Of a stretch of 64,000 nt of DNA, positions 30,955 through 64,000 are shown in pieces. The notes below the pieces were generated by a model. That model did no database searches, had not been told where the DNA came from, and saw only the letters and a list, made by a program, of their open reading frames with translations. The first letter of the stretch is position 1; every line of letters starts with the position of its first letter. The position numbers were made by a program, and so were the translations under genes. Origin of the DNA: Planococcus sp. SK3692 (lineage in GTDB: Bacteria; Bacillota; Bacilli; Bacillales_A; Planococcaceae); NCBI RefSeq assembly GCF_028890485.2, contig NZ_JARCHV010000002.1, positions 682,001 to 746,000 of the forward strand. The letters are read 5' to 3'.

Positions 30955-30981
30955 TTTTTTAAGATATGAGAATCAGTTAGG

Positions 30982-33954: not shown

Positions 33955-33955
33955 A

Positions 33956-45728: not shown

Positions 45729-46430
45729 ATGCTCAAAATATATGCGTGCGATATTAGTAGGAAATTAACAGAAGCTGAAAACGACTCTTCCCACCAATAC
45801 ATATCGCTTCAAAGAATCAAAAAAATAAAGAGAATGAAGTTTTTGGAAGACAGGCTGCGTAGTCTGCATGCTGAGTTATTGTTGAGATTTGCGTTGGTTC
45901 GGGATTTTGGGTACCACAACGATAATATCCATTTAAGCACAAGCAGTTCTGGAAAACCGGTGCTGGCAGATCAAGACATGCTGCACTTCAATTTGTCTCA
46001 CTCGGGTTCTTGGGTTTTTTGTGCACTCAGTGACCAGGCCGTTGGAATTGATATTGAGAAAATCAGCGAAGGCGATAATGGATTTATGGAAATGATTTTG
46101 CATCCTGCTGAAATTTTATGGCTGCAAGAAAGTCAGGAACAAGAAAAAAACACCAACTATTATAAGTTATGGTGTTTAAAGGAAGCGTATGGGAAATTTT
46201 TAGGGGTGGGCTTAAACTATGATCTGCAAAAGACTCGTTGTGAAGTGCAAGACGGCATTTGGTCATTGGCTCCACAACACGAGGCTGATCTTGGTCCGTG
46301 CCACTCGTCGGTCCGAACATTCACTACTGGCTATATCATTGCAGTTTGTTCTGTCCATAAGATTCCATCTGACATTCACAAAATTCAGCCTGAAGAACTG
46401 GAAAATGCGTTAAGAAAGGCCAGCAGATGA
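45729..46430 (+). CDS. 4'-phosphopantetheinyl transferase, Sfp type
   Basis: This 233-aa protein has the Sfp motifs: FNLSHSGSWVFCAL, AVGIDIEKI with the Mg-binding Asp-x-Glu, and YKLWCLKEAYGKFLGVGL with WxxKEA(x)xK. It attaches the CoA phosphopantetheine arm to the serine of NRPS carrier domains and thus activates the three synthetases encoded 5 kb downstream. It is larger than AcpS and of the Sfp length. It lies between the nag terminator and the divergent ABC operon, with TATAAT about 47 nt upstream and an AAGGGG-type ribosome site. Confidence 0.9.
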   Translation: MLKIYACDISRKLTEAENDSSHQYISLQRIKKIKRMKFLEDRLRSLHAELLLRFALVRDFGYHNDNIHLSTSSSGKPVLADQDMLHFNLSHSGSWVFCALSDQAVGIDIEKISEGDNGFMEMILHPAEILWLQESQEQEKNTNYYKLWCLKEAYGKFLGVGLNYDLQKTRCEVQDGIWSLAPQHEADLGPCHSSVRTFTTGYIIAVCSVHKIPSDIHKIQPEELENALRKASR

Positions 46431-46486
46431 ACTGAGTTTCTACTATTATATGCATTTATCGCTACCCAGACTGTCCAGCTTGTTTC

Positions 46487-48037
46487 TCATTCCAAAACGA
46501 GCGAACTATCTTTTAATTTATAAATTAGCCAAGCAATGACACAAATATTAATCAATAGAAGAAGTGGAAACGTCAAATCAAAGGCGAAGATAGTCAAAGC
46601 CGAAATGGCTGAAATGAGTACCATACTAATCATAGCTGTTAGGATTGTGGACTTCCCTTGTTTGATGACTTCCATTTCGCTTGACCAATTATAATTCGGG
46701 AATTTCAGGTTGATGAAAAATCCGATAATACTGATCAATAGCAGACTGGACACTGTGAACGAAATGAATAAAAGTGATTCAGTGGCAGATGAGCTGAAGC
46801 TGCGTACATATACCGTAATGGCGCACGCTAACCCCGGCAAAAACAACAATATATTCAGCGCAATCTTGGCTTTCGCCAATTCTATTAATGAAAGTGGCGA
46901 GGTCAATACAATCCAAATGCTGCGGCCTTCGAACGATAGGCTGGAAGAAGTTGTCGTTGTCAAAAGAATACATACCGTCGTAAACAAAATAAAAATGTAT
47001 TTACTGGATAAGCTGATGAATGACAATTCAAGCGTGTAATTGGTCAATAGCGGCGAGAGCTCGAACAAATAGGCCAGGCTGCCGATCAACAATAGCGCGG
47101 GCGTCAAAATAGTGTTGCTTACATAAGTGATGGACGATAAGTAAAGTTGCAATTCTTTCGAGAAGAGCGATTTGAATAGATTGTTTGACGACACGGTTCG
47201 ACTGTCGCGGGCTTTCGTCTTGCGGGATGTGGAATAAGCAGCTATAAGGAAATCATATTGTTTGATGAACACATAACAGGCAATCAAAACAATGAGAATA
47301 CTAATGGCAAGGAAGCTCAATACCTGTGGAAATTCTGGTTGTGGTTGCGCGTTGATGAAACCGAACAAATTGAGTGGAGAACTGCTGTAGAAAATTTCTT
47401 TGTAATTGAGTGAAGAAGCGTTCGCTGCGAAATACAACAGAGGCGATAGAAATAAGGTGATGGTCAACAGCGCTTCGATAATATTGCTGTGGACTTTCAG
47501 CAAGTTCAACAGCGTTTTCACGGCCAGGGAAATAAGAAATGTGGCAGCAATCACAACTGCAGGCAAGGTGCTGATGAGAATCAAAGCGCTCAGCAGCACA
47601 AAACCTAAAGAAGGCAAGATGAAAAGGTGCAGCACAACGCCAGCAAAGATAGTCATTGCGACAATGAGGAAATACAAAATCAGCAATTTTCCGGCATTGA
47701 AGAGTTTTGCTTGCCAGGAGGGAAGCGGCATGCTGAAAATCAAGTCAGTGTCCGACGAAAAGACCAATTTTTGGATGCCGCTCAAAATCGTCCAAATACC
47801 AAGACCCCAAAACAAAATTGACGAAAGGATTGGAAAGAAAAGGGCGGATTGATTGTTCATGTACAGGTCAAAGGCAATATAGACAATATACCCTAACGCC
47901 ATTACGATGGCTGCGCAATAGCCAGCCAGTGTAAGAGCAGCATGTTTTCGGTCATCCGGATGATTGGCTGCAGCCAATCTGGAAAACTGGAAATCGTTTT
48001 TGAGGATATACTTTTGCAATTGAAGAAACTTACTCAT
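46487..48037 (-). CDS. ABC exporter permease (two-half type, ~516 aa)
   Basis: This 516-aa protein has about twelve to fourteen hydrophobic segments. It begins MSKFLQLQKYILKNDFQFSRLAAANHPDDRKHAAL, a cytoplasmic leader, and then membrane segments separated by polar loops such as QYDFLIAAYSTSRKTKARD. It resembles the putative ABC-exporter permeases paired with YxlF/EcsA-like ATPases. Its start overlaps the ATPase gene upstream by 8 nt, so the two make one transporter. It is the last gene of a five-gene operon that diverges from the NRPS genes, likely for export or self-protection. Confidence 0.82.
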   Translation of the reverse strand: MSKFLQLQKYILKNDFQFSRLAAANHPDDRKHAALTLAGYCAAIVMALGYIVYIAFDLYMNNQSALFFPILSSILFWGLGIWTILSGIQKLVFSSDTDLIFSMPLPSWQAKLFNAGKLLILYFLIVAMTIFAGVVLHLFILPSLGFVLLSALILISTLPAVVIAATFLISLAVKTLLNLLKVHSNIIEALLTITLFLSPLLYFAANASSLNYKEIFYSSSPLNLFGFINAQPQPEFPQVLSFLAISILIVLIACYVFIKQYDFLIAAYSTSRKTKARDSRTVSSNNLFKSLFSKELQLYLSSITYVSNTILTPALLLIGSLAYLFELSPLLTNYTLELSFISLSSKYIFILFTTVCILLTTTTSSSLSFEGRSIWIVLTSPLSLIELAKAKIALNILLFLPGLACAITVYVRSFSSSATESLLFISFTVSSLLLISIIGFFINLKFPNYNWSSEMEVIKQGKSTILTAMISMVLISAISALTIFAFDLTFPLLLLINICVIAWLIYKLKDSSLVLE

Positions 48038-48743
48038 GGGCAGTAATGCTCCTGAATTTTTCGCCCAAGCTGCTTTCGGATAATAAATTGATCATCGTGT
48101 CATTGACTACGACTTCCCCGTCATGGATCATTACGACTTTATTACAAAGTTTTTCTGCCACTTCCAGTACGTGCGTTGAATAAAGGACGATTGATCCTTC
48201 AGCTGCACGTTTTTTCATTTCTTCCTGTAAAAAATAGGTGGCGTTCGGATCCAAACCGACAAAAGGTTCATCCAAAATAATCAGCTTCGGATTGTGCATG
48301 AGAATGGAGATCAAGACGAGTCTTTGTTTCATGCCGTGTGAATATGTCGAAATCAGATCGTGGATAGCGTCCCCAAAATTCAACTTTTTGAGCAAAGTAT
48401 TCAATTGCTCGTTGATGGTCTCATTGTCTATTTGATAGATGCTGCCAATGAGCTCCAAATAAGAGTAACCGGTCATATTGCCATAAAGTACTGGAGTGTC
48501 AGGGGAATAGCCGATCATTTGCTTAAACTCTTGCGGATTGTTGGCAATGTTGACACTGTCCAATTCAATATCGCCTCGATCAAATCGATGAATTCCGACG
48601 ATTGATTTGATGGAGGTGGTTTTCCCTGCTCCATTCATTCCGATAAAGGCACAAATATCTCCTGGTGCCAAATCGAGCGTCAAGTTCCTGATGCCTTTCT
48701 CGGATCCCTTATAGACTTTGGTCAAGTTATTTATCGATAACAT
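48030..48743 (-). CDS. ABC transporter ATPase
   Basis: This 237-aa ATPase has Walker A GMNGAGKTTSIKS, Walker B PKLIILDEPFVGLDP and the H-loop VLYSTHVLEV. The signature motif is unusual: YSHGMKQR in place of LSGGQ, which is common in the EcsA-like and YxlF-like exporters. It pairs with the 516-aa permease downstream through an 8-nt overlap. There is a 18-nt spacer from the permease gene upstream. It has a weak ribosome site (AGG). Confidence 0.88.
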   Translation of the reverse strand: MLSINNLTKVYKGSEKGIRNLTLDLAPGDICAFIGMNGAGKTTSIKSIVGIHRFDRGDIELDSVNIANNPQEFKQMIGYSPDTPVLYGNMTGYSYLELIGSIYQIDNETINEQLNTLLKKLNFGDAIHDLISTYSHGMKQRLVLISILMHNPKLIILDEPFVGLDPNATYFLQEEMKKRAAEGSIVLYSTHVLEVAEKLCNKVVMIHDGEVVVNDTMINLLSESSLGEKFRSITAHE

Positions 48744-48761
48744 ATGGATTGGCCTCCTAAA

Positions 48762-49529
48762 TTAAGACTTTCTGAGATTGGCGTTCGCCCAAGCAAGATT
48801 TAGTAGAATGAACAATATACAACTGGCAATGCTGAAATAATTCAACTCACCGACTGGCAGCAATTGGTTTTCCGCCAAGTTTAAGATGCCGCCTGGTGAC
48901 AATTGAAACAATATATTGTTAAAGCCTTTGATCAGGATGAAGAAAATCGAAATGGCGATTGTCGTCACCGCAATAAGGATAGGCCCTTTAATGAACGTGC
49001 TAATCAGGATTGCAAGACTGACGACGTAGAGGATCCATAAACTGTACATCAACAAAAATAATAAGAAACTGGAGAAAGAAAACGAACCGAATAAGAATAT
49101 TGTGTAGCCGTAGGAAACGATGGCTCCAATGGCAATGGCAAACATGCTGATGAGCCAGTGGCCGGTGAGCTTTGAGAGCAGGTAGGAGCGAAGCGAGACT
49201 GGACGGGTCAGAATAAAATCCTGCATGCCGTTATTACGGTCAGCGGCGATCAGTCCCATAAAACTAATGATTAAAATAATGAGTCCGATTTGATTGAACT
49301 GGCCGGAAATGGTCGATAGAAGAACTTCGCCAGAACTTGGCACCGGCCGGTTCGGGTCGATTGTGATGCCGTCTGCACCCCCCACATTCTCGAGGATGAC
49401 ATTCATGTATTTATTAATCAGTGGCTGTGTAACACCCAGTATGACGAAAAATAGCGTTAGCCAAATGAATTTAAATTCTTTTGCGGCTTCCAATAACTCG
49501 GTCCGCGTCAGTGTATAAAAGTTTGTCAT
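48762..49529 (-). CDS. ABC-2 type permease (YxlG-like)
   Basis: This 255-aa protein has six hydrophobic segments in the ABC-2 membrane layout, beginning MTNFYTLTRTELLEAAKEFKFIWLTLFFVILGVTQPLI. A large extracellular loop has VGGADGITIDPNRPVPSSGEVL. The third segment is preceded by ADRNNGMQDFILTRPVSLRSYLLSKL, the family motif. It overlaps the preceding ATPase stop by four bases (ATGA), giving a first complete transporter. The order PLDc_N-like, ATPase, permease matches the Bacillus yxlE-yxlF-yxlG set. Confidence 0.87.
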   Translation of the reverse strand: MTNFYTLTRTELLEAAKEFKFIWLTLFFVILGVTQPLINKYMNVILENVGGADGITIDPNRPVPSSGEVLLSTISGQFNQIGLIILIISFMGLIAADRNNGMQDFILTRPVSLRSYLLSKLTGHWLISMFAIAIGAIVSYGYTIFLFGSFSFSSFLLFLLMYSLWILYVVSLAILISTFIKGPILIAVTTIAISIFFILIKGFNNILFQLSPGGILNLAENQLLPVGELNYFSIASCILFILLNLAWANANLRKS

Positions 49530-50416
49530 GTGTCAGACACCATCTCCAGGAAAATTTCCTCGATTCCTTTTTCATAGAACTCGATGGACGTGATGTCCAT
49601 TTCTTTTTCTGCAAAGTCGTTGACAACTTTTTTTAAATTCAGTTCTCCTGTGCCCGTCAGCAAGAACGTATTTGGAGAGAGGCTGTCAATCCGATCAATT
49701 TCAGCGCTTGCCACAGGCTCTGCCATTTGAGGGGATTTTTCAACTTTAACTACAATCCGTTTGCGATCAGAGATATGCAAATCGTCATCAATGTTTCCGA
49801 CGATGCGGCCATTTTTGATAATGATATAGCGATCGCAGAATTCGCTGGCATCATCCAATATATGTGTTGAAATGATAATGGTCGTCCGCTTTTTTAAGCG
49901 GGCGATCAATTTTTTTACTTCGTTTCGGCCGATCGGGTCTAACGCTGAAACCGGTTCATCCAAAATAAGCAGGAGCGGGCGGTGCAAAATGGCCTGGGCG
50001 ATTCCTAAGCGCTGCTTCATGCCTCCTGATAGTTGTTCTACTTTGTAATGCCCGCGGTCTTTCAAGCCCACTTCTTCCAATACAGCTGGGATGTTCTCGG
50101 TAAGAAATGCTGAATCCAAGCCAGAAAGTTTACCGAAAAACCGAAGTGACTCATCACAAGACATCCAAGGTTTAAAATCCGTGTGCTGAGACAAATAACC
50201 AATGCTCTTCTTATGCTCCACGATGGGTTTGGAGTAAAACCTAATATCACCTTGCTCGTGTTGCAAAATGCCGGTCATGCATTTGATGAGCGTCGTTTTG
50301 CCGGCACCGTTAGGTCCTAGTAAACCGACGCATTCCCCTTCGGCGATAGTGAAGGAAACATCGCTCAGGATTTTTCGTTTTTTGATCGTTTTATGAAGCT
50401 TCTCGACTGTAATCAC
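49526..50416 (-). CDS. ABC transporter ATPase (YxlF-like)
   Basis: This 296-aa ATPase has Walker A GLLGPNGAGKTTLIKC, signature LSGGMKQRLGIAQ, Walker B LLLILDEPVSALDP and an H-loop IIISTHILDD. A C-terminal extension of about 80 residues ends FYEKGIEEIFLEMVSD, as in CcmA/NatA-like drug and lantibiotic immunity ATPases. It starts at GTG 50416 within the PLDc_N-like gene (26-nt overlap) and overlaps the next permease, so all are coupled. It is probably part of a resistance or export pump for the NRPS product. Confidence 0.9.
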   Translation of the reverse strand: MITVEKLHKTIKKRKILSDVSFTIAEGECVGLLGPNGAGKTTLIKCMTGILQHEQGDIRFYSKPIVEHKKSIGYLSQHTDFKPWMSCDESLRFFGKLSGLDSAFLTENIPAVLEEVGLKDRGHYKVEQLSGGMKQRLGIAQAILHRPLLLILDEPVSALDPIGRNEVKKLIARLKKRTTIIISTHILDDASEFCDRYIIIKNGRIVGNIDDDLHISDRKRIVVKVEKSPQMAEPVASAEIDRIDSLSPNTFLLTGTGELNLKKVVNDFAEKEMDITSIEFYEKGIEEIFLEMVSDT

Positions 50417-50642
50417 TTCTAATCATTCTCCTTCCGATTACCAAATACAAAATCGGGCCAAGCGATTGAATCAATATGATTGCCACTAGCCAAATGTATG
50501 GGGCAGCAATCAGTTCTCTTCTTTTGACCCAGTCGTAAAGGGCAATGCCGATCAACAAAAGATTAAAGAAAATAATCGGCAGGGCAAAAGGGAGGATCTG
50601 TGCCCAGTCGATTTCAAGAAGGGCCGTAATGTCTGTATTCAT
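50391..50642 (-). CDS. PLDc_N-domain small membrane protein (YxlE-like)
   Basis: This 83-aa protein starts at ATG 50642 with GAGGTGAG just upstream. It has two hydrophobic segments, ILPFALPIIFFNLLLIGIALYDW and IWLVAIILIQSLGPILYLVIG, joined by a short basic loop (VKRREL), and the tail RRMIRSDYSR. This matches the phospholipase-D N-terminal (PLDc_N) fold of YxlE, a regulator of the YxlFG transporter operon in Bacillus. It is the first gene of the five-gene ABC operon. A longer upstream frame has no ribosome site. Confidence 0.8.
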   Translation of the reverse strand: MNTDITALLEIDWAQILPFALPIIFFNLLLIGIALYDWVKRRELIAAPYIWLVAIILIQSLGPILYLVIGRRMIRSDYSREAS

Positions 50643-51234
50643 CAACTCACCTCTTTCTATTACCATTATCGATAATGAAAATGTATAAGTCAACCAGTTT
50701 GATAAATTTGGGAATATGTAAAGAGCGTTAAAGAAAAAGCTAAAAAAAAGTGGCTTTGTATGATTCAAAAGATACGATAGATAGCTGTTTGAAATTAAAA
50801 AAACAATTTCTATTGTAAAAAAATGCAGTTTTATTAGCAGAAGAAAAGAAATTGAATAGAATTTAACGAATAATAAAGTATTTTCTAAAAAATCTTAATA
50901 ATTAATTAATTAATTTTTTAAAAATATTTTTTCAATTATAAAGCTCCGAATATGAGTTTATACAAAAATAATTAATCTCTTCAGCTATTCCCTTTAGAAA
51001 TCGAGTGATTCCTCATAAAAGGGACTTAAATCTGATATATTAAAAAAACTTATTTATATTGAACTATGTAAAAATACCTATGTTGACTTACTGAAATTGG
51101 AGGGACTTTTTGAATTTTAGAGGCTTGCAAGTTTTTTTAGGATATGTGTAATATGTAATCGAGAAATATTTTGGTAGCGAATTACCAAATTTAGAGGAAA
51201 AAAATTACTTAAATACGAAATGGAGGAAATGGAG
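50643..51234. other. AT-rich divergent promoter region between the ABC operon and the NRPS genes
   Basis: 592 nt, very AT-rich, with TAATTAATTAATTAAT-like runs at about 50899-50915. A GGAGGG site at 51099-51104 stands before a 13-codon frame from TTG 51110 (MNFRGLQVFLGYV) that could be a leader peptide, but this is weak. The real NRPS ribosome site is GGAGG at 51222. A shared bidirectional promoter region would link pump and synthetase expression. Confidence 0.45.
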
Positions 51235-54200
51235 ATGGGGAAATTATTGACGGAAAGTTCTTCCCGAGTTACAGAATTTGAATACCAATTGTATTTTTTG
51301 TGGAGGAAACTTGGGGTGACAGATCTGTACACGGAGACTTGGGCCTTCAAACTGGCCGATCATGTTGAAATTGCAAAATTCCAGGAAGCTATTTCACTTG
51401 TAATTGAGCAAAATACGGAAATACATAGCAATTATTTTCTTTCGGATGATTCTTTAATCAAGAAAGAAATCCGGAAAGATTCCCTCATCCATCTAATCGA
51501 TAGCGATCATTATCAATTATCGGCCCTTATCGAAGACCTGAAGAAACAGTGCTTTGATTTGGAAAAAGATCCACTCATCCAATTCTACTTATTCACAAAT
51601 TCAGCCTCTCAAGAACATTACCTTCTCATTAACTCTCACCATATTCTGACTGATTCCATAACGAAAAACGTTTTATTAAAGCAATTGTTTGATGCCTATG
51701 AAACTGGCAGCTTGCCATTAAAAACTGAGATGACTCACAGCCAGCAACCAAAAGCTGGTGTTGATCGCTCAGTACTGGAAAAGTATAAGGCGTATTTAGA
51801 AGACATGATGCACTACCCAGACCGATCAAATCTCTACGGCGCTATTCAAGAGAAAAATGGCGGCGTGACGCTGCAAATCGACTTTAGCCAAGAGTTCGTG
51901 ACAAGTACAGAGCAACTTTGCAGAAGCAAGAGAGTCACACCTTTTGCTTTTTACTTAACGGCTTTTTACAGCTTTCTTTGTTCTCAACTGAATACACACA
52001 GATTTCGAATGGGCATTCCGTTTTCCAGTAGAACCAATGCGGCTGAAGCTCAGGCGATTGGCTATTATGTCAACACCTTGCCTTTTGGCATGGACTTGGA
52101 ACCTATAAGCGGCTACGATGAACTTTTGAAAAAAATACAGATGGAAATCTTCAAGCTGGATCAATTCAAATCAATCTCACCTGCCCAGATATCCGATATT
52201 ACGACTTCACAAAACGGCAGTTTGTATAAAACTGTGTTTAGTTACCAAGAAACGCATTCCCAACAAGGAATCGATTATGAGATTAATACATCTCAAAACG
52301 GAGCCAAGTTCGAATTAACCGCTAATTTTAAAAAGCTTCAGAACAAACTGGTTTGTGAACTGGAGTTTTCCGACGAGACCTGGACGACTGAAGAATCCAA
52401 CCATTTTAAGATGGCTTTCGAAAATTGGGTGCTCCAGCTTGCTAACGGCGGAATCTCCTGGGAAGACGCCATCAAGCAAAGTGAAAACGATCGATTGGTA
52501 TTTAAACAAGACTCATACATATTGAGCGGTGAACAAACTGTTTCAAGTAATAGCAGCATTTACGGGCTATTCAATGCATTCGCCGCCCAGTCACCGTACC
52601 AACAGGCAATTATACATAATGAATCCAGTATCAGTTATAAGGAATTGAACGACCGGGTTTTGTCCTATTCCAGAAAATTGGCGTGCTTGGATATCACAAG
52701 TTCCGACATCGTTGCGCTCAGGTTGAAACGATCAATCGACACCATCGCACTTATCCTTGCATTGGCGAAAAATCATATTACCCATGTCCATCTGAGCGAC
52801 ATGTATCCAGCAGAAAGAACGTCTTATATTTTAAAAGACTCCCAGGCACAATTGCTGATTTTTGATGAGGAGATACTGGGTGACGAAAAGTTGCCTGTAA
52901 AGAAAATGGCATTTTCGGATTTTCAGCAGGTAGATTTAGCGGACTCAGAAAAAATGGTGAAAGAGCCCATTAATCAAGTATTCAGCCTAATCTATACTTC
53001 TGGCACCACTGGGACACCTAAAGGCGTAAAAATCAAAACAGAAAATATCCAGAATTTCTCGGAAAATTACACAAAGTTTGGAGCTGGAGAAAGCGATATC
53101 TTCACTCACTTAAGCACCTATACTTTTGACGCTTGGTTCTTTGAAGTCATGCTGCCTATATTGAATGGAAAATGCATTGTCATTGTGGACTCTCCAATTT
53201 CCGATGAACAAAACTGGCAATTTGCAGAGCTGGCAACAAAGCCGACTATTGCCTTCTTGACGACATCCCTTTTTAATTCGTTTACCGATAGCCGCACAAT
53301 TGAAAAAATCAATTACTTGAACAAAATCGTTATTGGCGGAGAAACCGCCTCCCCAAAGCATATTGAAGCTGCCTTTAAGCAAAATTCGAAGTTGCGGATT
53401 TTCAACGGCTACGGGCCGACAGAGAATACGACTTTCACTACGGTACACGAGGTCACCCATCAAAGCCCTGCTATGATCCCGATCGGAACACCTTTGACGA
53501 ACATGGACGTAATCATTGTGGGTCCTAACGGGGAAGTCCTGCCGAAAAATTGCTATGGTGAAATTTTCATTGCCGGAAGGAGCTTGATGGCAGGCTATTT
53601 GGGAAGAGGCAAAGACAAGCTCATTGCTCATCATGCGGGCGATAAAGCCAAATTGTATTATCAAACAGGCGATATTGGAAAAGTTGGCCTGGACAATCAA
53701 CTGAATTATTTATACCGCAAAGACCGCCAAGTAAAGATAAGGGGATTCAGGATTGAACTTTCTGAAATTGAACATAAATTATCACAGCTCAATGGGCTGA
53801 CAAAATGCGTGGCGCAGGTGGAAGTGGAAAATGCCATCAAAAGATTGGTTGTGTATTATACAGGACCGCTAAGCAAGGAAAAAGTAAAACTCCAGGCAGA
53901 GAGTATATTACCGGCTTATATGATGCCAAACCAATTTATTAAAGTGAATGAAATCAAATTGACGCTAAACGGAAAAATGGATAAAAGCTCAATCCAAATA
54001 GCCGAACGCATCATTGAAACAAAAGACGTGGCATGGAGCGATACTGAAAAAATTGTCCTGGAATGCATCACGAAAGCGACAAGTCTCGATTGCACAGATA
54101 AAAATGAAAACTTTTACACATTGGGCATAGACTCAATTTCTTCTCTTCAAGTCTGCTCGATTTTAAGATCGAAAGGAATTCCAATAAGCGTTTCCGATTT

Positions 54201-57200: not shown

Positions 57201-58428
57201 AACTGCCGACAACTTGGCAAACTTCATCAGTTCGATGAGTCAGTATTCATTTATCACAGAGGCCGATATCTACTACCAAAATATTGCCATGACATTTGAT
57301 CCTTCGATTATGGACATTCTATTGCCGTTTCAAGCAGGTGCGTCCATTTATATACCTGCAGAGAAATTATTCGGAAAGGAAATTGAAGACTGTTTCAACG
57401 AGCAGAGGATTACTATAGCTACCTTCACGCCTTCGCTAGTGAAAAATATTAGCTTTTTGCAATCTACGAGTATCAAAACGCTATTTGTTGGCGGGGAAGC
57501 GTTGAAGCAAATGGACATTAACCATGTACCGGATCACATCGTCATTGTAAATATGTATGGGCCTACAGAAGCGACTATTACGAGCACGCTATTCGAAATC
57601 AATCAATTGAATAAACGGGAGCACGCGTACTACCCGATTGGCAAGCCTCTAAAAAATATGGAGTTCGCGATCCGTTCTGAGGAAGGCATCGAGTTGCCTG
57701 TTGGCTCTCCGGGACTCTTGTATTTGAAAGGGCCGATGGTAGCGAAAGCTTATACTGACCCCAAATTGACGGATGATTATTTTTCCGTCGTGACTCATGA
57801 GAGAGAGTATAATACGGGCGATATTGTGTACCAATCAAATGATGGCAACCTCCATTATGTTTGTAGGAAGGACCAGCAAATCAAACTGCGCGGCTACCGA
57901 ATTGAACTAAAAGAAATCGAGGGTGCGCTAGCGAATATTCAGGGGATTACAAGGTTCCACTTGGCCACCGTGAATCAGGGCACAGCCTTGGCTTTGTTCT
58001 ATTCAGGTGATGTGAATGCATCCCATATGAAAGCAAACTTGCAAGAGCAATTGCCAGCATATATGGTTCCGACGATTATTAAGCCGGTGGCCGATTTTCC
58101 GCTAAGTATCAATGGAAAAATAGACGTCAAGCAATTGCAGGACAGTGTTCGTGCTACAACATATGCAGCCCATACAGAAAACCGAAATAGCCCGTTTTAT
58201 GAACAAATCAAGGATATCTGGGGGCAAGTATTGGAACTGGAAGGCATCTCGAAAACGGACAATTTTTTCGAGTTGGGAGGCAATTCTCTGTTAGCCATTC
58301 AAGCGATCAAAAAAGTGAATGAAGTGACAGGGGCTAATGTTTCCATCAAAACATTATTTGAATATCAAGTAATCGGGGAATTCGTTGAGCAACTTCGGAA
58401 AGGAGAAAGCTATGCCGTCGCAAAATAA
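51235..58428 (+). CDS. nonribosomal peptide synthetase, C-A-T-E-C-A-T
   Basis: This 2397-aa synthetase has two modules. Module 1: C (HHILTD at His135; the usual Gly is Ser), A (YTSGTTGTPKG at 587, FDAWFFE near 630, YGPTENTT, RGFRIE, NGKMD), T (LGIDSI, Ser967) and an epimerase domain (HHLIIDGVSW at 1143, EGHGR at 1269, GWFTTIYP, FNFMGDF). Module 2: C (HHIILDGWSM at 1555), A (YTSGTTGAPKG at 1976, FDPSIMD) and T (LGGNSL, Ser2351). By pocket alignment the first A domain reads D-A-F-F-V-G-G-T-F-K, close to Val/Ile codes. ATG 51235 is 8 nt from GGAGG. Being first with a C domain, it may start by acylation. Confidence 0.92.
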   Translation: MGKLLTESSSRVTEFEYQLYFLWRKLGVTDLYTETWAFKLADHVEIAKFQEAISLVIEQNTEIHSNYFLSDDSLIKKEIRKDSLIHLIDSDHYQLSALIEDLKKQCFDLEKDPLIQFYLFTNSASQEHYLLINSHHILTDSITKNVLLKQLFDAYETGSLPLKTEMTHSQQPKAGVDRSVLEKYKAYLEDMMHYPDRSNLYGAIQEKNGGVTLQIDFSQEFVTSTEQLCRSKRVTPFAFYLTAFYSFLCSQLNTHRFRMGIPFSSRTNAAEAQAIGYYVNTLPFGMDLEPISGYDELLKKIQMEIFKLDQFKSISPAQISDITTSQNGSLYKTVFSYQETHSQQGIDYEINTSQNGAKFELTANFKKLQNKLVCELEFSDETWTTEESNHFKMAFENWVLQLANGGISWEDAIKQSENDRLVFKQDSYILSGEQTVSSNSSIYGLFNAFAAQSPYQQAIIHNESSISYKELNDRVLSYSRKLACLDITSSDIVALRLKRSIDTIALILALAKNHITHVHLSDMYPAERTSYILKDSQAQLLIFDEEILGDEKLPVKKMAFSDFQQVDLADSEKMVKEPINQVFSLIYTSGTTGTPKGVKIKTENIQNFSENYTKFGAGESDIFTHLSTYTFDAWFFEVMLPILNGKCIVIVDSPISDEQNWQFAELATKPTIAFLTTSLFNSFTDSRTIEKINYLNKIVIGGETASPKHIEAAFKQNSKLRIFNGYGPTENTTFTTVHEVTHQSPAMIPIGTPLTNMDVIIVGPNGEVLPKNCYGEIFIAGRSLMAGYLGRGKDKLIAHHAGDKAKLYYQTGDIGKVGLDNQLNYLYRKDRQVKIRGFRIELSEIEHKLSQLNGLTKCVAQVEVENAIKRLVVYYTGPLSKEKVKLQAESILPAYMMPNQFIKVNEIKLTLNGKMDKSSIQIAERIIETKDVAWSDTEKIVLECITKATSLDCTDKNENFYTLGIDSISSLQVCSILRSKGIPISVSDFFQHQTIESLAYFIENQPANGIVEQLPIEKWESNALSPIQKWFFDTQPSAPSHWNQSILLKMNVEDELLLLKNSLRSLIDHFEILKSVFECDGENWRQVVKPNHSYSIHHETNLSESELAKILAFNQQQLDLKKQLYRFSILETESSCYVQMVIHHLIIDGVSWRMLLTQFSNYLEKNGELVNEQKRFNQWIDYLSSHTPSETAYRYWNQHSIDEAKAPLVKYTNIESLAIDFNLYETKEFKEKIMKNFMGDMEAALISMSAMAIQKTLPAMDPHMTIQMEGHGRPTAASDFSSTLGWFTTIYPIGLRVETSLQNTILKTREILSEVPNKGFDFSLAHSMQMKSDWTFNFMGDFNSTAYKGFEVAEMFRDDDFSEASFVSYNLQLVPIIIDETLSFKVFYNNEMYDEFEMSQLLGQIKEQFSQFIQMTPDRFLPLSGTREGMLIQQEKSSTSGNYVVQWKLNTPQLDINQFQLAVQRLIYQVEALRSTFRTVAGKGIESVKEPEEIIQNSEIRVLDWSKVSAERLDSWTERYLTVQRATEFDFEEGPLFRFTVIKTSANYLVIFEFHHIILDGWSMSLLFNALTAAYEDSGEKELNSYVKSRMNLESIKTHVNYEPWQQVLADYQAIEFFGNDSEHSSERIKATNKLAVTPAVNDFLKKQNITMNEFYLLAWSLTVAETFGKKDVLFGMTVSGRNTFSMHELDTIGMFISTLPVRIKNFDTVRSVKELLDSIKENVKRIQDHDYVSWLDIAQHFNENSEIQIGYVFENYPILDDEGIFSIKNFQGKEQVEFPLALSVTQQSDFVTYELNARQKDVSEDLLMATERIFKNIVEHLPLYSDDYLKFIETIRQDHRTTARSSSPKITEQPLQQTLSKTFSAFGENIFVRYENRSYSYLQIQDIIAKVIGTTALCSEDTVLVATENRFKKTIYLLACLVSGATYVPVSKEFNQKRVEFIAADSGANCLFDESGKFKRNGEPTAHHDAAYIIYTSGTTGAPKGVVVTADNLANFISSMSQYSFITEADIYYQNIAMTFDPSIMDILLPFQAGASIYIPAEKLFGKEIEDCFNEQRITIATFTPSLVKNISFLQSTSIKTLFVGGEALKQMDINHVPDHIVIVNMYGPTEATITSTLFEINQLNKREHAYYPIGKPLKNMEFAIRSEEGIELPVGSPGLLYLKGPMVAKAYTDPKLTDDYFSVVTHEREYNTGDIVYQSNDGNLHYVCRKDQQIKLRGYRIELKEIEGALANIQGITRFHLATVNQGTALALFYSGDVNASHMKANLQEQLPAYMVPTIIKPVADFPLSINGKIDVKQLQDSVRATTYAAHTENRNSPFYEQIKDIWGQVLELEGISKTDNFFELGGNSLLAIQAIKKVNEVTGANVSIKTLFEYQVIGEFVEQLRKGESYAVAK

Positions 58429-61400
58429 CGCATTGACACCGAACCAATTGGGTATTTGGACAAGAACTAAAGTATATGGGGAAAATAACGAATACTTGAT
58501 TCCGTTAGTATTGCCAGTGCCCGGACATATCGGCAAGGCAACGATTGAAAATGCATTGAACGAAACAATTCGATGCCATGGAGCTTTAAGAACGGTGGTG
58601 GTCGACGGAGATCCAGTTCATCAACGAATCGATCATTTTCATCCTGTAACACTGCCCATAATCCAAGGAGAGCATGAAGTAATCGAAAGTTCGATGAAAA
58701 AGTATTTAGAAGAGGGGATATCGCTTGATGTCCCTCTGGCCCAGTATCATTTATTTATTGCGCAGGATGTCCAGTACCTTGTTTGCAAATTCCATCACAT
58801 CATTTTCGATGCCCATTCAGCTCAACTGTTTCAACAAGACTTTGAGAAATGCCTAAGGATTGGGAAATTGCATAAAGAAGAGTCGCTTTACACGCAATAT
58901 CTGGAGGACTCAAGTGAAGAGAATCAAAATGAGCGGATATTTTGGGAACGATATCTCAGCCAACAGATCAATAAGCTCACAAGCAGCCACAAGCTTTCGG
59001 CAAGCAGCGAGGCGAGAGACCAAGAAAGAATCGTTGTGCGTAACAGGTTGAACTGCAGCCTGGATGAATTTAAGCAATATTCAACGGCTGTGGGAGGAAC
59101 CTTGTTTTCTGCTGGTCTTGCCGCGTTTCAATTATTCACGGGCCGATATTTCGACTTGGATGCTGTAGCTACTGCGATTCCCATATCCATCCGGCGCACT
59201 GCTTCAGAAAGTGAGACAATCGGATTTTTGGCAAATGTACTACCCGTCATAACGGTTCTTGACCGGAACAGCACAGCTTATGAAATGCATAAGAATATTC
59301 AATCCACGATTATTACTTTAATTGAAAATGGCAGTATTTCAAATAGTGATATTCATCGCATCGTTCAGGCAGATGCCATCAATCGTTACGAAGACCTTTA
59401 TCAAATGGTGTTCGATCTTAAATTGGATGACGAGTCGTTTGAATCGGCATTGATTTACTCGTCAAGCGTCAATTCGGAGTATGGCTTTTTGGCGAACCTG
59501 GTCATTAAAGGCGAAGCTGTTTATTTGGAAACCAACGTAGATGCCTCTGTCTATAGTAAAAGCTTGATCGACAGCCTCCATGACTCGTTCTCTGCCTTCT
59601 TCACGAGTTTAGTAAACAGCGTCCACAGTCCTGTCGGAGACCATCATGTGATTTCTGATAAGCAGCAGGAATCATTGATGGAAAAACACAGCGATCTGAG
59701 CAAATCACCTGATAATAGTGAAGGACTTATTTTTCAAACTGGAATACCTGGAGCAGTTGCCATTTCGTATAACGATTATGAACTTTCATACGGCGAATTG
59801 GAGCGGTACACGAGAGATTTCAAAAAGAAACTGGAGATGTTCGGGGTAGGCCAAGGCGCGAAGTTCGCGGTCGTCGTCGAAAATAAGCTATTGGCCGCAG
59901 TGCTGTTTTACTGCATACAACAAACTGGCCATTGCTATATCCCGATTTCGCCTAAAAGCCCTGAAAAAAGAATTCAAAAAATCATCGAAGAAGCCAAGCC
60001 GCTGCTTGTGTTTTCAGATTGCTTGGACTCCCAGATGGACAATTTGATCGAAGTTTATCCCGACAAAATCTTCGACGGATTGACTGAGGCAAAATTAACG
60101 CATCGCGATGATAAGGCGCGTTACGAAAAAGGGATTTCTTATATTATTTTCACTTCGGGCTCGACAGGAAAGCCAAAAGGTGTTCCTATTTCGGTCGAAA
60201 ACATCGCAAGTCTTGCCGCTGCGTATCCGGAATTTGATATTCACTCACACAACGTGGTTGCGCAAATTGCCAGTCTGTCATTTGATGCCAGCATCTTTGA
60301 ATACACTTTGGCGTTTTGCAATGGGGCGGAACTTGCCGTGTTCGATGATCAAAAAGGCTATGAACAATTCCCGCGATTCACCTGCGAACGCAAGGTCACT
60401 CATTTCCTTATGACGCCAGAATATTATGCGGTTTTGGACTTCAGCAAATGCGCGAGTTTGAAAACGGTATTAGTGGGGGGAGCGCCGTATCGTGAAAACA
60501 AAACGGTTCCAGCGGGAGTGGCTGTATTAAATGCATACGGGCCAAGCGAATGTTCCATCATTACGTCTTTCAAAGCCATGAATGCCGGCACAAGCGTCGC
60601 AAACATCGGACAACCATTGGGGCAAGTGCATTATTTAATTCTGGATTCATCTGATCAAATTGTTCCGAAGGGGCAGCAAGGGCAATTATGCATTGCGGGC
60701 CCGGGTGTCTTTAACGGCTATCTTGCCGGAGAAGAGTCGCCTTTTGTCACGCTTCGCATAGGTCACGTAGATGTTAGCTATTTCAAGACAGGCGATATCG
60801 TTTATCAAGATGAAATTAACGACATTCATTTTGTGACAAGAAATGCGGAGCTTGTAAAGCTTAGAGGGAACCGGATAAACCCTGAAGAAATTACCCAATT
60901 AATCTTGAAGCACACCACAGTCACCAATTCGGCAACGGTTTTCCATTGCGATCAGCTGTATAGCTTTTTTGTCGGCAATGCATCTGTAGAAGAGCTCCGC
61001 GATTTATGCAAGCTCCACTTGCCGGATTACATGGTGCCGAAAAAAATAATCGAACTGGATGCTATCCCCATGACGATTAATGGAAAAACAGATTTGCAGT
61101 ACTTGAAAAACCATATCGATCGCGATAAATCTTCTGGTCAACAAGTTGATGAAGCACCGATTTCAGCAAGTTTGGACGAACGGATATTAACGGTTTTTCG
61201 AATTGTATTGGATGACGCGGAACTCACAAAAGATGCAAACTTTTTTGAAGTGGGTGGCGATTCAATTAAAAGCATCCAGCTTGCCAACGAATTCCAGAAA
61301 AAAGGTATACACATTACATCGATCGATATTATGAATTCGGAAACGCTTGGGGAGCTCTCTGAAAAAGCACTGAAAACCAAACCGATATTCAACCAACAAC

Positions 61401-62704
61401 CGTTGAACGGTTCTTGTGAATTGCTGCCGATACAGCAATGGTTTTTCTCACATGAATTTACGAATATGCATCAATGGAATCAATCGATTGAGTTTCAGGT
61501 AGAGGGCGAACTGGCAGAAAAAGACATTATGAATATTTACGCTGGAATCAGGAACAAGCACGATGCCTTAAGAAGCAACTTCGTTGATGTGGGTGGCAAA
61601 AGAGAAATTGTCATAAAATCAAATGCATCGAAAGACGTGGCGGATGAGATGGAGTTCTTCAATATGTCGACTGCCACGGAACTGGAAATAGCGGAATTGA
61701 AAACGAGAATGTTCAATACATTGCAACTGGGGCTGGACGTGGAAAAAGGAAGTTTGTCCAAATTGGCCGTTATCCAAACAAGCAACCGAAGTTTCACGAT
61801 CATGTGGGTAATGCATCATTTAATCTGCGACAATGTCAGCTGGATGATCCTGCGAAATGATTTTGAGACCGCAGTTGATCAACTTAGCAACAAAGAATTA
61901 CTGTGTTTAAGTGAAAAAACAACGAATATCCGGGAGTTCTCTGCTTTCGTCAATTCCGAAATAATCCCTGAGGGCATTGCTGCGAATTGGGAAGAGGCGT
62001 TGGAAAGTGCCCATGCCGGTCAGTTTTCCAATAAACTAACGCCTGCGCCAGTTTCAAGCCGCTATCAAACAGCGGTATTTGAATTGAGCGAGGAAGAATC
62101 CGCCAGCCTCCAACTATATGCAAAGAAAAAATACTATACGCCTGACTTGCTGCTGTTGCTGCTGTTCGGAAAAGCTTTAGCCGAAGAAATCGAGTTGGAC
62201 AAAGTATGGATTACACGTGAATTGAACGGAAGAAGCGGATTTGGAGAAAATCTATTATTGCATCAAACTGTCGGATGGCTAACTTCACTTCATCCTGTAT
62301 CAATCCGCAATAGCCCGAAATTGCATGAATTCATTTCGGCTAATTATTTCGAAATTGAACGCCTCGGCAAGCATGCGAAATATTACCAGCGCTTGAGCGA
62401 CAAGATGACCTTGCCGAATATTTCCTATAATTATCTTGGTGATTTAGACCAGTTGCCAAGTGTAGATGAGAAGCAGAATATCGGCAGCTACGATTTCTTT
62501 GATGAGATTGCCTTAAATGCCGGTTTTGTGAATGGCCGACTTAGCTTCATCTTCCTATTCCAGGAGAATAGGGAGCAAATGATTCATGAATTGTTTTGGA
62601 AGCTCAAGGAATTGATGAAACTGCTCGATGGGGAAGATGGTGTCAATGTGTTCGGTCTCGATCAAGATACTTTGTTGAATTTAGATGAACTGTTCAAAAT
62701 TTGA
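58412..62704 (+). CDS. nonribosomal peptide synthetase, C-A-T-E
   Basis: This 1430-aa, single-module synthetase has C (LTPNQLGIW at the start, HHIIFDAHS at His128, with Ala where Gly is usual), A (FTSGSTGKPKG at 580, FDASIFE, AYGPSECS, RGNRINPEE, NGKTD), T (VGGDSI, Ser951) and a terminal epimerase domain (HHLICDNVSW at 1135, ELNGRSG in place of EGHGR, GWLTSLHP, YNYLGDL). The third residue is therefore probably presented as D. The A-domain pocket reads about D-A-F-L-L-G-A-I-I-K by eye, aliphatic but unassigned. It overlaps the previous gene by 17 nt (ATG 58412, AAAGGAG upstream), so stoichiometry is coupled. Confidence 0.92.
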   Translation: MPSQNNALTPNQLGIWTRTKVYGENNEYLIPLVLPVPGHIGKATIENALNETIRCHGALRTVVVDGDPVHQRIDHFHPVTLPIIQGEHEVIESSMKKYLEEGISLDVPLAQYHLFIAQDVQYLVCKFHHIIFDAHSAQLFQQDFEKCLRIGKLHKEESLYTQYLEDSSEENQNERIFWERYLSQQINKLTSSHKLSASSEARDQERIVVRNRLNCSLDEFKQYSTAVGGTLFSAGLAAFQLFTGRYFDLDAVATAIPISIRRTASESETIGFLANVLPVITVLDRNSTAYEMHKNIQSTIITLIENGSISNSDIHRIVQADAINRYEDLYQMVFDLKLDDESFESALIYSSSVNSEYGFLANLVIKGEAVYLETNVDASVYSKSLIDSLHDSFSAFFTSLVNSVHSPVGDHHVISDKQQESLMEKHSDLSKSPDNSEGLIFQTGIPGAVAISYNDYELSYGELERYTRDFKKKLEMFGVGQGAKFAVVVENKLLAAVLFYCIQQTGHCYIPISPKSPEKRIQKIIEEAKPLLVFSDCLDSQMDNLIEVYPDKIFDGLTEAKLTHRDDKARYEKGISYIIFTSGSTGKPKGVPISVENIASLAAAYPEFDIHSHNVVAQIASLSFDASIFEYTLAFCNGAELAVFDDQKGYEQFPRFTCERKVTHFLMTPEYYAVLDFSKCASLKTVLVGGAPYRENKTVPAGVAVLNAYGPSECSIITSFKAMNAGTSVANIGQPLGQVHYLILDSSDQIVPKGQQGQLCIAGPGVFNGYLAGEESPFVTLRIGHVDVSYFKTGDIVYQDEINDIHFVTRNAELVKLRGNRINPEEITQLILKHTTVTNSATVFHCDQLYSFFVGNASVEELRDLCKLHLPDYMVPKKIIELDAIPMTINGKTDLQYLKNHIDRDKSSGQQVDEAPISASLDERILTVFRIVLDDAELTKDANFFEVGGDSIKSIQLANEFQKKGIHITSIDIMNSETLGELSEKALKTKPIFNQQPLNGSCELLPIQQWFFSHEFTNMHQWNQSIEFQVEGELAEKDIMNIYAGIRNKHDALRSNFVDVGGKREIVIKSNASKDVADEMEFFNMSTATELEIAELKTRMFNTLQLGLDVEKGSLSKLAVIQTSNRSFTIMWVMHHLICDNVSWMILRNDFETAVDQLSNKELLCLSEKTTNIREFSAFVNSEIIPEGIAANWEEALESAHAGQFSNKLTPAPVSSRYQTAVFELSEEESASLQLYAKKKYYTPDLLLLLLFGKALAEEIELDKVWITRELNGRSGFGENLLLHQTVGWLTSLHPVSIRNSPKLHEFISANYFEIERLGKHAKYYQRLSDKMTLPNISYNYLGDLDQLPSVDEKQNIGSYDFFDEIALNAGFVNGRLSFIFLFQENREQMIHELFWKLKELMKLLDGEDGVNVFGLDQDTLLNLDELFKI

Positions 62705-62724
62705 AAGAGTTGAGGTGAGTCATG

Positions 62725-64000
62725 ATGAAAGTAGTAGCTGTTTACCCGATGACGGAGATGCAAAAAGGCATCGCTTATGAATGTGCATTGTATGATGCCA
62801 CAAACGCTTATGTCAGCCAAGCCGTAATTGAGATTGAATACCCTGACTTGGCAAAGTACCGGAATGCTTGGGAAGCAGTGTTGAACAAGTACGAAATATT
62901 CCGGACGAAATTTGTGTTCGGCCATTTGAAAGATGATGTGCAAGTAGTGATGGACAGCGCTAATTACAACTGGGAAGAGCAGGAATGCCGAATAGAAGAG
63001 CTTCACAATCTGGCTGACGCTCTAAAGACATTGCATGTGAATGACTTGCCGCTTATCAAATTGAATATCTTTAAAACAGAGGATAAAACCTTTTTGGTGT
63101 GGACTTTCCATCATTTGCTCTTGGATGGATGGAGTATGAGCACCACTTTGGCTAAAGTGGACGACGCATATCAAGAGTCTAGTTCTTTTCTTGAGCCAGA
63201 TTATACGTACAGCCGTTATATCAAAGAGGTGCTGAGCAGGGATTCCGCAAATGCCAATATGTTTTGGAAGGGATATCTAGAAGGGTTCTCGGGAGAGCGT
63301 TTTCCTGTGATCACCCGGCACCGATCAATAGCGGGATTTGATGAAATCCATCGAAGCTTGTCCGTTTCACAAGACTCGATTGCGCAATATTGCAAGCAGC
63401 ACAAAATATCCTTAGCCGTGTTCTTTCAAGCGGCCTGGGCCATCGTTTTGAAATTGTACACAGGGAAAAATGACGTTCTCTTTAATGTCATCGAATCAGG
63501 CAGGAATTCGCCGGCGGCTCAATCCACTGATTTGATTGGCATGACAATCGAGAGGCATCCTAAAAGAATACACTTGGAGATGACGCAGACGATTGGGGAA
63601 TTGCTCGAGGCCATCAAAATGGATGATTTGAATTTGCAACATCAAAGCGCCTTGTCGGTAAGGGAAGAAAAGAAGATTCTGTCCACAGAAGCAGGAAAAG
63701 AATTATCCAATACCAGCTTTGTGTTCGAAAATTATCCTTCGGCCGCCAAGCCAAAAAGCTATAAAATCAGCCAAGGAAGTGAATTGTCTACATCGGACAT
63801 GACTGTTTCAATCGGCGTTTTGGACCACCAAGTGCATATGAAGTTGATGTTCTCCAAAGATATTATCGACAACCAACAAGGACGGGACATCCTTTCCTAT
63901 TTGGAGTCCGTAGTTGAGCAGCTCATTGGATTGGAAGGGGAGCAGTCGGTTCAAACCGTGCTCAATGCGCAAGACTTGAGCACTATCGTTAGCAGCTCTT
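62725..64000 (+). CDS. nonribosomal peptide synthetase, N-terminal condensation domain, cut by window end
   Basis: The frame is open to the last base with no stop, so the gene continues past the window. The visible 425 residues are one condensation domain: VAVYPMTEMQKGIAYEC at the start, HHLLLDGWSM at His129, then NVIESGRNSPAA and TDLIGMTIERHP. The EGI/EGML-like first motif and the HHxLLDGWSM form resemble condensation domains that take a D-configured donor, which fits the epimerase domain ending the protein before. GAGGTGAG lies 5 nt upstream of ATG 62725 (62722 is the alternative). It should carry the fourth module, and perhaps the thioesterase. Confidence 0.9.
   Translation, partial: MKVVAVYPMTEMQKGIAYECALYDATNAYVSQAVIEIEYPDLAKYRNAWEAVLNKYEIFRTKFVFGHLKDDVQVVMDSANYNWEEQECRIEELHNLADALKTLHVNDLPLIKLNIFKTEDKTFLVWTFHHLLLDGWSMSTTLAKVDDAYQESSSFLEPDYTYSRYIKEVLSRDSANANMFWKGYLEGFSGERFPVITRHRSIAGFDEIHRSLSVSQDSIAQYCKQHKISLAVFFQAAWAIVLKLYTGKNDVLFNVIESGRNSPAAQSTDLIGMTIERHPKRIHLEMTQTIGELLEAIKMDDLNLQHQSALSVREEKKILSTEAGKELSNTSFVFENYPSAAKPKSYKISQGSELSTSDMTVSIGVLDHQVHMKLMFSKDIIDNQQGRDILSYLESVVEQLIGLEGEQSVQTVLNAQDLSTIVSSS

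Follow-up and report, generated by a model that had tools for sequence, protein, structure and literature searches.

The window, a stretch of 64,000 nucleotides from Planococcus sp. SK3692 (genome G000), ends within a locus in which non-ribosomal peptide synthetases (NRPS) adjoin ABC pumps, and the question is what this locus makes and whether the product is of a known kind. A sequence-only reading of the window had proposed a new peptide system; this holds for the member but not for the kind, because the layout, the starter code, the domain order, the reductase that releases the product, the pumps, the LugJ-like regulator and its operator match the published lugdunin cluster. Very probably, this part of the Planococcus chromosome holds a complete gene cluster of the fibupeptide (lugdunin) type, with genes for biosynthesis, export and immunity. 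The defining product feature of this class is a thiazolidine-containing cyclic peptide, and the predicted product here is a Cys-started heptapeptide aldehyde with alternating D and L residues that would close to a thiazolidine ring. It is apparently not lugdunin itself because the codes for residues 3 and 6 differ and module 6 keeps an adenylation (A) domain that is missing from LugC.

Lugdunin is an anti-staphylococcal lead that so far has been described from nasal Staphylococcus, S. lugdunensis being the only known producer according to a 2021 review (PMC8210680).

Layout of the locus and its lugdunin counterpart

The locus runs past the window end at 64000, and its last gene ends at C5:757653 (Table 1). 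Homologs of LugZ, LugI-E-F-G-H, LugA-B-C-T-D and LugJ are all present, with 25-63% identity to the S. lugdunensis cluster (lugRABCTDZ, lugIEFGH, lugJ, lugM). The two clusters have in common the LugD starter and the LugA-B-C module order, the type II thioesterase, the PPTase and reductase release, as well as the five-gene pump set with its gene order, LugJ and the LugJ operator. The features from which the sequence-only reading started, namely, intact C, A, T and E domains over three collinear genes, a dedicated Sfp-type PPTase upstream, and a divergent operon of five genes with two ABC pumps sharing an AT-rich region, were all recovered. The gene arrangement differs: in S. lugdunensis, the pumps lie upstream of and codirectional with the synthesis genes, whereas in Planococcus they are divergent, with the PPTase upstream of the pumps and the LugJ counterpart as the last gene of the synthesis operon, and counterparts of LugR and LugM were not found.

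Table 1. Features of the locus (window positions; C5 positions lie beyond the window end)
Feature	Position	Strand	Basis or remark
~100-bp direct repeat, left copy	45516..45618	.	flanks 30-kb insertion; alignment with G020 empty site
Sfp-type 4'-phosphopantetheinyl transferase (PPTase), LugZ counterpart	45729..46430	+	Pfam ACPS + AASDHPPT_N; 25% identity to LugZ-position protein
LugH-like ABC permease, 516 aa	46487..48037	-	39% identity to S. lugdunensis LugH-position protein
LugG-like ABC ATPase	48030..48743	-	Pfam ABC_tran; 63% identity to LugG-position protein
LugF-like ABC permease	48762..49529	-	Pfam ABC2_membrane_2; 52% identity
LugE-like ABC ATPase	49526..50416	-	Pfam ABC_tran; 53% identity
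LugI-like small membrane protein, 83 aa	50391..50642	-	weak PLDc_N match; 47% identity to LugI-position protein
LugJ-type operator	50659..50682	.	3 mismatches to 24-bp core of S. lugdunensis lugI palindrome
Candidate pump-operon promoter TTGACT-17-GATAAT	50665..50693	-	consensus scan, 10/12; overlaps operator
Inverted repeat, 9-bp arms	51168..51191	.	just upstream of NRPS1; seen in G000, G042, G019
NRPS1, LugA counterpart, C-A-T-E-C-A-T	51220..58428	+	36% identity to LugA
NRPS2, LugB counterpart, C-A-T-E	58385..62704	+	36% identity to LugB
NRPS3, LugC counterpart, 5' part (first C domain)	62722..64000, on to C5:754654	+	35% identity to LugC
LugT counterpart, type II thioesterase	C5:754621-755373		downstream of NRPS3
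LugD counterpart, stand-alone A-T protein	C5:755327-757105		downstream of LugT counterpart
LugJ counterpart, LugJ-like regulator	C5:757123-757653		57% identity to LugJ
~100-bp direct repeat, right copy	C5:757663-757765		beyond window

Several observations count against the lugdunin-type assignment: the identity of the NRPS to LugA-C is only about 35-36%, there is no open reading frame of at least 90 aa between 50768 and 51220 that could be a counterpart of LugR (TetR), no LugM-like monooxygenase was found among the five downstream genes scanned, and the operator is degenerate, with 3 of 24 positions mismatched. The low NRPS identity and the missing LugR would fit an unrelated NRPS, for example, one for a siderophore, located beside a general drug pump and resembling the lug genes through shared NRPS logic; however, nine C/E domains are orthologous position by position, the operator is present, and so are the I-E-F-G-H order and LugJ at 57% identity, so that we consider this explanation exceedingly improbable. 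LugR controls the lugdunin synthesis operon; the lugdunin biology used for comparison here is that of PMC7927808, PMC11980582 and PMC8210680. The place of LugR at the head of that operon is peculiar to the S. lugdunensis cluster and does not characterize the compound class.

The neighbors of the inserted cluster are a sugar isomerase gene on one side and a prpR-type gene on the other; at this place, genome G020 has ~250 bp and, by alignment, represents the empty site. The left copy of the flanking direct repeat contains an internal motif repeated at 45523 and 45598.

The assembly line and its predicted product

All nine condensation-family matches in the genome fall within the NRPS locus. Beyond 64000, where the sequence-only reading had proposed to look for the last modules and a thioesterase, the modules are indeed found: NRPS3 is 3310 aa long in full, with the order C-A-T-C-A-T-E-C-T-R. 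The domain search detected no thioesterase domain in it; the chain ends in a reductase, and the thioesterase is a separate type II protein. The domain map and the C/E tree together indicate seven carriers, with E domains at predicted residues 2, 4 and 6 followed by DCL domains. In the tree of 41 domains, the E, LCL and DCL domains are each set apart from the rest by a branch, and all nine positions group across clusters, including that of lugdunin. What the sequence shows is this domain orthology, together with gene content and order, the order of domains, the A-domain codes, the operator-like sequence and the active-site residues, of which the carrier Ser, the S/Y/K of the reductase and the His/Glu of the E domains are all kept. 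The reductase matches NAD_binding_4 above the cut-off and TIGR01746 (thioester-reductase) below it, its motifs being conserved with LugC.

Most likely, the downstream A-T protein loads the starter, in which case the first C-A-T-E module would add residue 2 rather than residue 1. The proposed D-residue-containing peptide stands as a prediction, and the D-aa1, L-aa2, D-aa3 reading retains its D/L order, with the numbering shifted by one because the Cys starter comes first. The starter code, DLFNLSLIWK, is the same in S. lugdunensis, Paenibacillus, S. salivarius, G311, G042 and G000, and we take it to specify Cys, an assignment that leans on the known Cys of lugdunin. All codes were read at positions set by motif anchors, not by structure, with the numbering of the GrsA scheme and the LugB code read by eye. 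In NRPS1, the C-A-T-E module (residue 2) has a Val-like code near-identical to that in the lugdunin cluster, and the C-A-T module (residue 3) has DPMTFGMITK, compared with DPFSIGMIIK in LugA. The single C-A-T-E module of NRPS2 (residue 4) has a Leu-like code, similar to its lugdunin counterpart; the first start codon of NRPS2 lies in the overlap with NRPS1, and translation may in fact begin elsewhere. In NRPS3, the residue-5 code DAFWFGGTFK is exactly that of the only A domain of LugC (Val), module 6 carries its own A domain with the code DAFVVGGVCK, and module 7, which has none, needs another A domain to charge the last carrier. The shared Cys and Val codes and the likeness at residues 2 and 4 would be expected if the product were lugdunin itself, but the residue-3 code and the additional module-6 domain make this highly improbable. 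The use of a single LugC A domain for residues 5, 6 and 7 is a trait of lugdunin, not of the class. In place of the module-6 A domain, LugC has a stretch of ~150 aa; that this is what remains of an A domain was not supported, the best match other than itself having E = 0.038.

From these features, we infer the product, its stereochemistry and its ring closure as follows. The PPTase would arm the seven carrier domains, after which the LugD-like A-T protein would load L-Cys; NRPS1 would then add D-Val followed by an L-residue, NRPS2 one D-Leu-like residue, and NRPS3 three more, namely, L-Val, a D-residue and a final residue charged by another A domain. The terminal reductase would release the heptapeptide aldehyde, on which the amine and thiol of Cys would close to yield a thiazolidine macrocycle, as in lugdunin. 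Stalled carriers would be cleared by the type II thioesterase. The cluster PPTase is one of two ACPS-family matches in the genome, the other being a 141-aa frame elsewhere.

Conceivably, a pathway of the same family might end differently, in a linear aldehyde, an alcohol or a cyclic imine of the aureusimine/koranimine type, without a thiazolidine. AusA and AusB rank among the best NCBIfam matches, although neither reaches its cut-off (AusB being the best match of the cluster PPTase), but AusA is a two-module enzyme, whereas the locus is colinear with LugD-A-B-C over seven modules and has the Cys starter code as well as the LugIEFGH/LugJ set, all of which fit lugdunin. Reductase-ended NRPSs do yield C-terminal aldehydes (PMC7586950); in lugdunin, however, the Cys closes on the aldehyde (PMC8210680). 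On balance, a different end product appears unlikely.

Pumps, regulator and control region

The divergent pump operon, from 46487 to about 50642 on the minus strand, encodes two ATPases and two permeases, together with one small membrane protein. The latter, LugI-like, matches PLDc_N at 21.5 bits, below the cut-off of 23.3; its frame is open to 50768, and the ATG at 50642 was chosen because the homologs measure 81-101 aa. The LugH-like protein is strongly hydrophobic and, having no Pfam match, is called a permease because it is homologous to LugH. A crude hydropathy scan gave 12 segments for it and 10 for the LugF-like permease, in both cases overlapping and not reliable as segment numbers.

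The intergenic region between the pumps and NRPS1 (50643-51219) has a GC content of 24.3%. The core of the S. lugdunensis LugJ-type operator occurs, with 3 mismatches, at one place in the window, both strands considered, and at none in 100 shuffles; the exact 24-bp core is found in S. lugdunensis and in six pump-only islands described below. The call of the overlapping promoter is weak because the region contains five promoter-like sites compared with a shuffle average of 3.6. Regulation and membrane activity are likewise inferred: LugE-F, LugG-H and LugI would serve in export of the product and in self-protection, and the LugJ-like repressor would hold the pump promoter until the product binds it. 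The inverted repeat upstream of NRPS1 is a possible second control site. G000, G042 and G019, in which it is seen, are near-identical in that stretch.

Sister clusters and pump-only islands

Among the 46 genomes of the genus Planococcus, two have the whole cluster, one (G019) has a deleted copy in which most of the NRPS sequence is lost and the pumps are kept, and six have the pumps and LugJ alone. The expectation that such loci are rare is supported: condensation domains occur in 3 of the 46 genomes, and close homologs of the large permease in nine of 261 family genomes, all nine within the genus, the five remaining matches being 22-25% identical. The deleted copy and the six relatives might suggest a decaying, silent cluster retained for its pumps alone. 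This is very unlikely, given that the G000 genes have no internal stop (the sequence-only reading had named premature stops in the remaining modules as grounds for refutation), that the frames in G042 are full-length, and that dN/dS between these two intact copies is 0.16-0.24 for NRPS1-3 (0.02-0.24 over the 10 genes compared).

Outside the family, G311, from another family of Bacilli, shows full synteny with the Planococcus cluster at 39-81% protein identity. The cluster of Paenibacillus sp. OK003 (L069, L074, L075) has the order A-B-C-T-G-H-D-I-E-F, and the sequence stretch examined there gave no PPTase match; the Streptococcus salivarius plasmid pSsal-NU10 (L037, L076) carries a TetR gene, LugA-like sequence spread over two frames, homologs of B, C, T, G, H, D, E and F, and a PPTase. 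All three have the Cys code and a two-A-domain counterpart of NRPS3. The plasmid was retrieved by both plasmid searches, as the one record found with the permease query and among five found with the A-T protein query (E 1e-80), the other four being NRPS matches of 32-34%. The Planococcus and sister clusters make fibupeptides a family with variable, comparable chemistry, offer natural congeners to isolate and reveal what LugC lacks.

A 2020 transporter paper reports lugIEFGH homologs without biosynthesis genes in Planococcus and a few other genera (PMC7927808). Among the matches listed in a literature search of titles and abstract beginnings, with subscription journals and bioRxiv outside its scope, there was no fibupeptide synthesis cluster outside S. 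lugdunensis, and an NRPS cluster is not among the items that three papers with Planococcus genomes give for their Planococcus strains.

The pump-only islands contain the same pumps and LugJ as the Planococcus cluster, without synthesis genes, and their proteins are 93-94% (G), 86-88% (F), 81-83% (E), 73-77% (I), 74-77% (J) and 70-72% (H) identical to those of the SK3692 cluster. Five of the six islands are flanked by two dif-like sites in the same orientation, 5187-5196 bp apart, with 0-3 mismatches; the sixth has the right site alone, with three mismatches. A single dif-like chromosomal site per genome was found in 33 of the 46 genomes, and the reversed pattern in none of the 46. Single weak sites mean little because shuffled sequences (one mononucleotide shuffle per sequence) gave 0-5 matches at up to five mismatches; the boundaries are supported by the spacing of site pairs at 0-3 mismatches, together with the reversed-pattern control. 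The window and the G000, G042 and G019 loci contain no such site at up to five mismatches, so the cluster itself is not supported as a dif module.

A remnant of the lugD 3' end upstream of lugJ would have implied descent of the islands from a full cluster. This was not supported: when each of the six islands was aligned locally with two references (G311 being left out as reference), 11 of the 12 scores were reached by 5-173 of 200 shuffles, the G042/G021 alignment alone beating all 200.

In all 15 pairs of islands, the long alignment is a block of 5.1-5.3 kb in different contexts, so far as compared (the G003 contig ends about 60 bp beyond the right site, leaving the right flank outside the comparison). 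Judging from these boundaries, the islands look like small movable cassettes, with a bearing on the possible movement of fibupeptide immunity between species. A still wider scenario, to which we give even chances, is that fibupeptides are a bacterial class spanning Planococcus, another family of Bacilli, Paenibacillus and an oral Streptococcus plasmid; that in Planococcus the immunity genes have split into Xer-mobile, self-regulated 5.2-kb cassettes passing among non-producers, a trace left in the genes by an arms race over a single peptide family; and that the ancestral synthetase, with the module-6 A domain, was kept outside Staphylococcus. In the dif modules described in Acinetobacter, adaptive genes likewise lie between two dif-like sites in varied contexts (PMC6449649); the Planococcus islands differ in their Gram-positive host, in the same orientation of the sites and in their cargo of peptide-antibiotic immunity, with Xer-dependence putative. 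Three pairs (G021/G040, G021/G034 and G017/G040) have further, shorter matches outside the block.

Domain architecture and assignment of the locus

The PPTase, the minus-strand five-gene operon and the three NRPS genes claimed in the sequence-only reading of the window (G000:C5:682001-746000, in a 3.54-Mb Planococcus genome of six contigs) are all present and intact. That reading left the last modules and a thioesterase to be sought past position 64000; the modules are indeed there, but chain release falls to a thioester reductase domain instead of a thioesterase. NRPS1 has the order C-A-T-E-C-A-T, NRPS2 is C-A-T-E, and NRPS3, which has 3310 aa and extends beyond the window end, is C-A-T-C-A-T-E-C-T-R, with a final module that lacks an A domain. 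The carrier serines, the HH and E-x-x-x-R motifs of the E domains, and the glycine-rich motif and S/Y/K residues of the reductase are kept in aligned homologs. Downstream of NRPS3 lie, in this order, genes for a 250-aa type II thioesterase, a 592-aa stand-alone A-T protein and a 176-aa LugJ-like protein that has no Pfam match and shows 57% identity to the LugJ-position protein of Staphylococcus lugdunensis; an unrelated prpR/kdgT-type operon adjoins downstream. All nine condensation-family matches in the genome fall within the NRPS locus.

Features with coordinates (window positions unless a sequence handle is given)
Feature	Position	Strand	Remark
Low-GC stretch	26000-38000		GC 27-36%
Copy of ~100-bp repeat	45516-45618		paired CCTGTGCAC-type motifs
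Sfp-type PPTase gene	45729-46430		intact
Five-gene operon	46487 to about 50642	minus	intact
Match to lugI palindrome core	50659-50682		3 mismatches
Inverted repeat	51168-51191		immediately 5' of NRPS1
LugC, S. lugdunensis	L071:2480-11290	minus

The code of the A-T protein, DLFNLSLIWK, is the same in S. lugdunensis LugD, the product of the lugdunin starter-unit gene (PMC7927808), and in the relatives from Paenibacillus, S. salivarius and G311, a genome of another Bacilli family. With this identity, its domain order, reductase release, pumps and LugJ-like regulator, the locus, once put forward as a candidate new peptide system, is assigned to an already known kind, the lugdunin (fibupeptide) type; we file it as a new member, from Planococcus, of the lugdunin-type clusters, whose product is predicted from sequence to be a thiazolidine peptide. 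Among the literature matches listed (titles and starts of abstracts, with many journals and bioRxiv outside coverage), we saw none that describes fibupeptide synthesis genes in a species other than S. lugdunensis.

Predicted residues and comparison with related clusters

The codes of modules 2, 3 and 4 are DAFFVGGTFK, DPMTFGMITK and DAFLLGAIIK versus DAFFFGGTFK and DPFSIGMIIK in the first and second A domains of LugA and DAFLIGAVMK, read by eye, in LugB; the module 5 code, DAFWFGGTFK, is identical to that of LugC, and module 6 (DAFVVGGVCK) has no LugC counterpart. The lugdunin residues at the counterparts of modules 2-5 are Val-Trp-Leu-Val. The published sequence VWLVVVt (PMC8163882) agrees with this assignment. 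When 41 C and E domains of five clusters were placed in a maximum-likelihood tree, the E domains (14), the C domains following an E (14) and the other C domains (13) were each set apart from the rest by a single branch (support 100/99, 94/96 and 97/95, respectively), and all nine domain positions clustered across loci, position by position. Such a pattern would be expected for a chain that starts with L-Cys and continues D, L, D, L, D to the last residue.

LugC of S. lugdunensis has no A domain in module 6, where about 150 aa of unassignable sequence stand instead, whereas the counterparts in Planococcus, G311, Paenibacillus and S. salivarius all possess a second A domain; this distribution suggests that LugC may have lost it. 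Domain scoring of LugC revealed three PP-binding stretches, four condensation-family stretches and one A domain, against the two T and three C domains given in a review (PMC8210680), which may treat the E domain separately. With three carriers, a single A domain would be enough for three Val without module re-use.

The S. salivarius plasmid pSsal-NU10 (NZ_MN480762.1) carries a rearranged lug-type cluster that comprises, in order, a TetR gene, a LugA-like stretch spread over two frames, then B, C, T, G, H, D, E, F and the PPTase. In Paenibacillus sp. OK003, the order is A-B-C-T-G-H-D-I-E-F, at about 30-61% identity, and the LugC counterpart contains two A domains.

Distribution, insertion and regulation

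A LugH-like permease is encoded in nine of the 46 genus genomes, in 14 of 261 family genomes (the nine genus members and five distant forms at 22-25%) and in 28 of 398 genomes drawn from the class, with one close form outside the genus (G311, 53%). Among the nine, two (G000 and G042) have the whole cluster, G019 has its NRPS sequence mostly deleted and the A-T gene split in two frames, and six have, in the stretch read, only I-E-F-G-H and a divergent lugJ (the G003 contig stops shortly after this gene). Three of the 46 genomes contain condensation domains (nine each in G000 and G042, all in the cluster; one in the G019 remnant), so that the pump-only genomes show none at the search sensitivity used. 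Planococcus and a few other Bacillales have been described as having lugIEFGH homologs but lacking the biosynthesis genes (PMC7927808); G000 and G042 are exceptions to this pattern. The dN/dS values were 0.02-0.24 for 10 genes between G000 and G042 (omitting the PPTase, of unequal length, and LugI) and 0.06-0.21 for five genes between the pump-only islands of G003 and G038.

In genome G020, an isomerase gene and a prpR-type gene are separated by ~250 bp; the distance between the two is some 30 kb in G000 and G042. The G000 insert is bordered by a ~100-bp direct repeat, present as a single copy in the G020 stretch, and the GC content of the cluster is 42.3% versus 48.5-50.6% in the flanks read. 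Three motif pairs like that of the repeat copy in the table were seen within 39 kb read of G042, which suggests a dispersed repeat. Separately, the low-GC stretch of the window, at whose end lie genes for a polysaccharide flippase-type protein, an epimerase and a CWB2 protein that includes a polysaccharide lyase domain, is perhaps an acquired surface-polysaccharide island.

The 24-bp core ATTATCATTATCAATAATGATAAT of the published lugI palindrome is exact in S. lugdunensis and all six pump-only islands; in the window, it matches at a single place, with 3 mismatches, and in none of 100 shuffles of the window. This place is overlapped by a -10/-35 pair that is a candidate promoter of the pump operon, of a kind also expected by chance. 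Because the window cluster lacks a LugR counterpart and its synthesis operon closes with the lugJ homolog, a single LugJ-like repressor may control transcription in both directions. The inverted repeat next to NRPS1, kept in three close relatives, is a possible operator or 5' RNA hairpin.

Pump cassettes and dif-like sites

In five of the six pump-only islands (G003, L028; G017, L029; G034, L033; G038, L035; G040, L031), a block of 5187-5196 bp, comprising LugJ and LugIEFGH (5.19 kb), lies between two same-orientation sites resembling AGTTTACATAT-N6/7-TTATCGGAAG (0-3 mismatches); the sixth island, that of G021, shows a right site alone, which is degenerate. The blocks are 99.5% identical between G003 and G040 and 99.7% between G017 and G034, with no further alignment over the stretches compared (the G003 right flank is beyond the contig end); in three other island pairs, shorter stretches beyond the block align as well. 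The exact site pattern is found in 43 of the 46 genus genomes and the reversed control pattern in none. At two mismatches or fewer, a near relative of the site occurs once each in 33 genomes, never twice, and is absent from 13; this once-per-genome site resembles the Bacillus dif site.

The multiplicity and spacing of dif-like sites suggest a wider system of Xer-type cassettes in the genus. The simplest reading is a mobility of the pump cassettes like that of the dif modules described in Acinetobacter (PMC6449649), and the near-identical LugJ-LugIEFGH units in differing flanks are candidate Xer-mobile immunity modules in Planococcus. The dif-like sites have conserved arms and a variable centre, mostly of 6-7 bp, and number up to 21 per genome (G045); in G002, G011 and G028, the listed sites are often a few kb apart.
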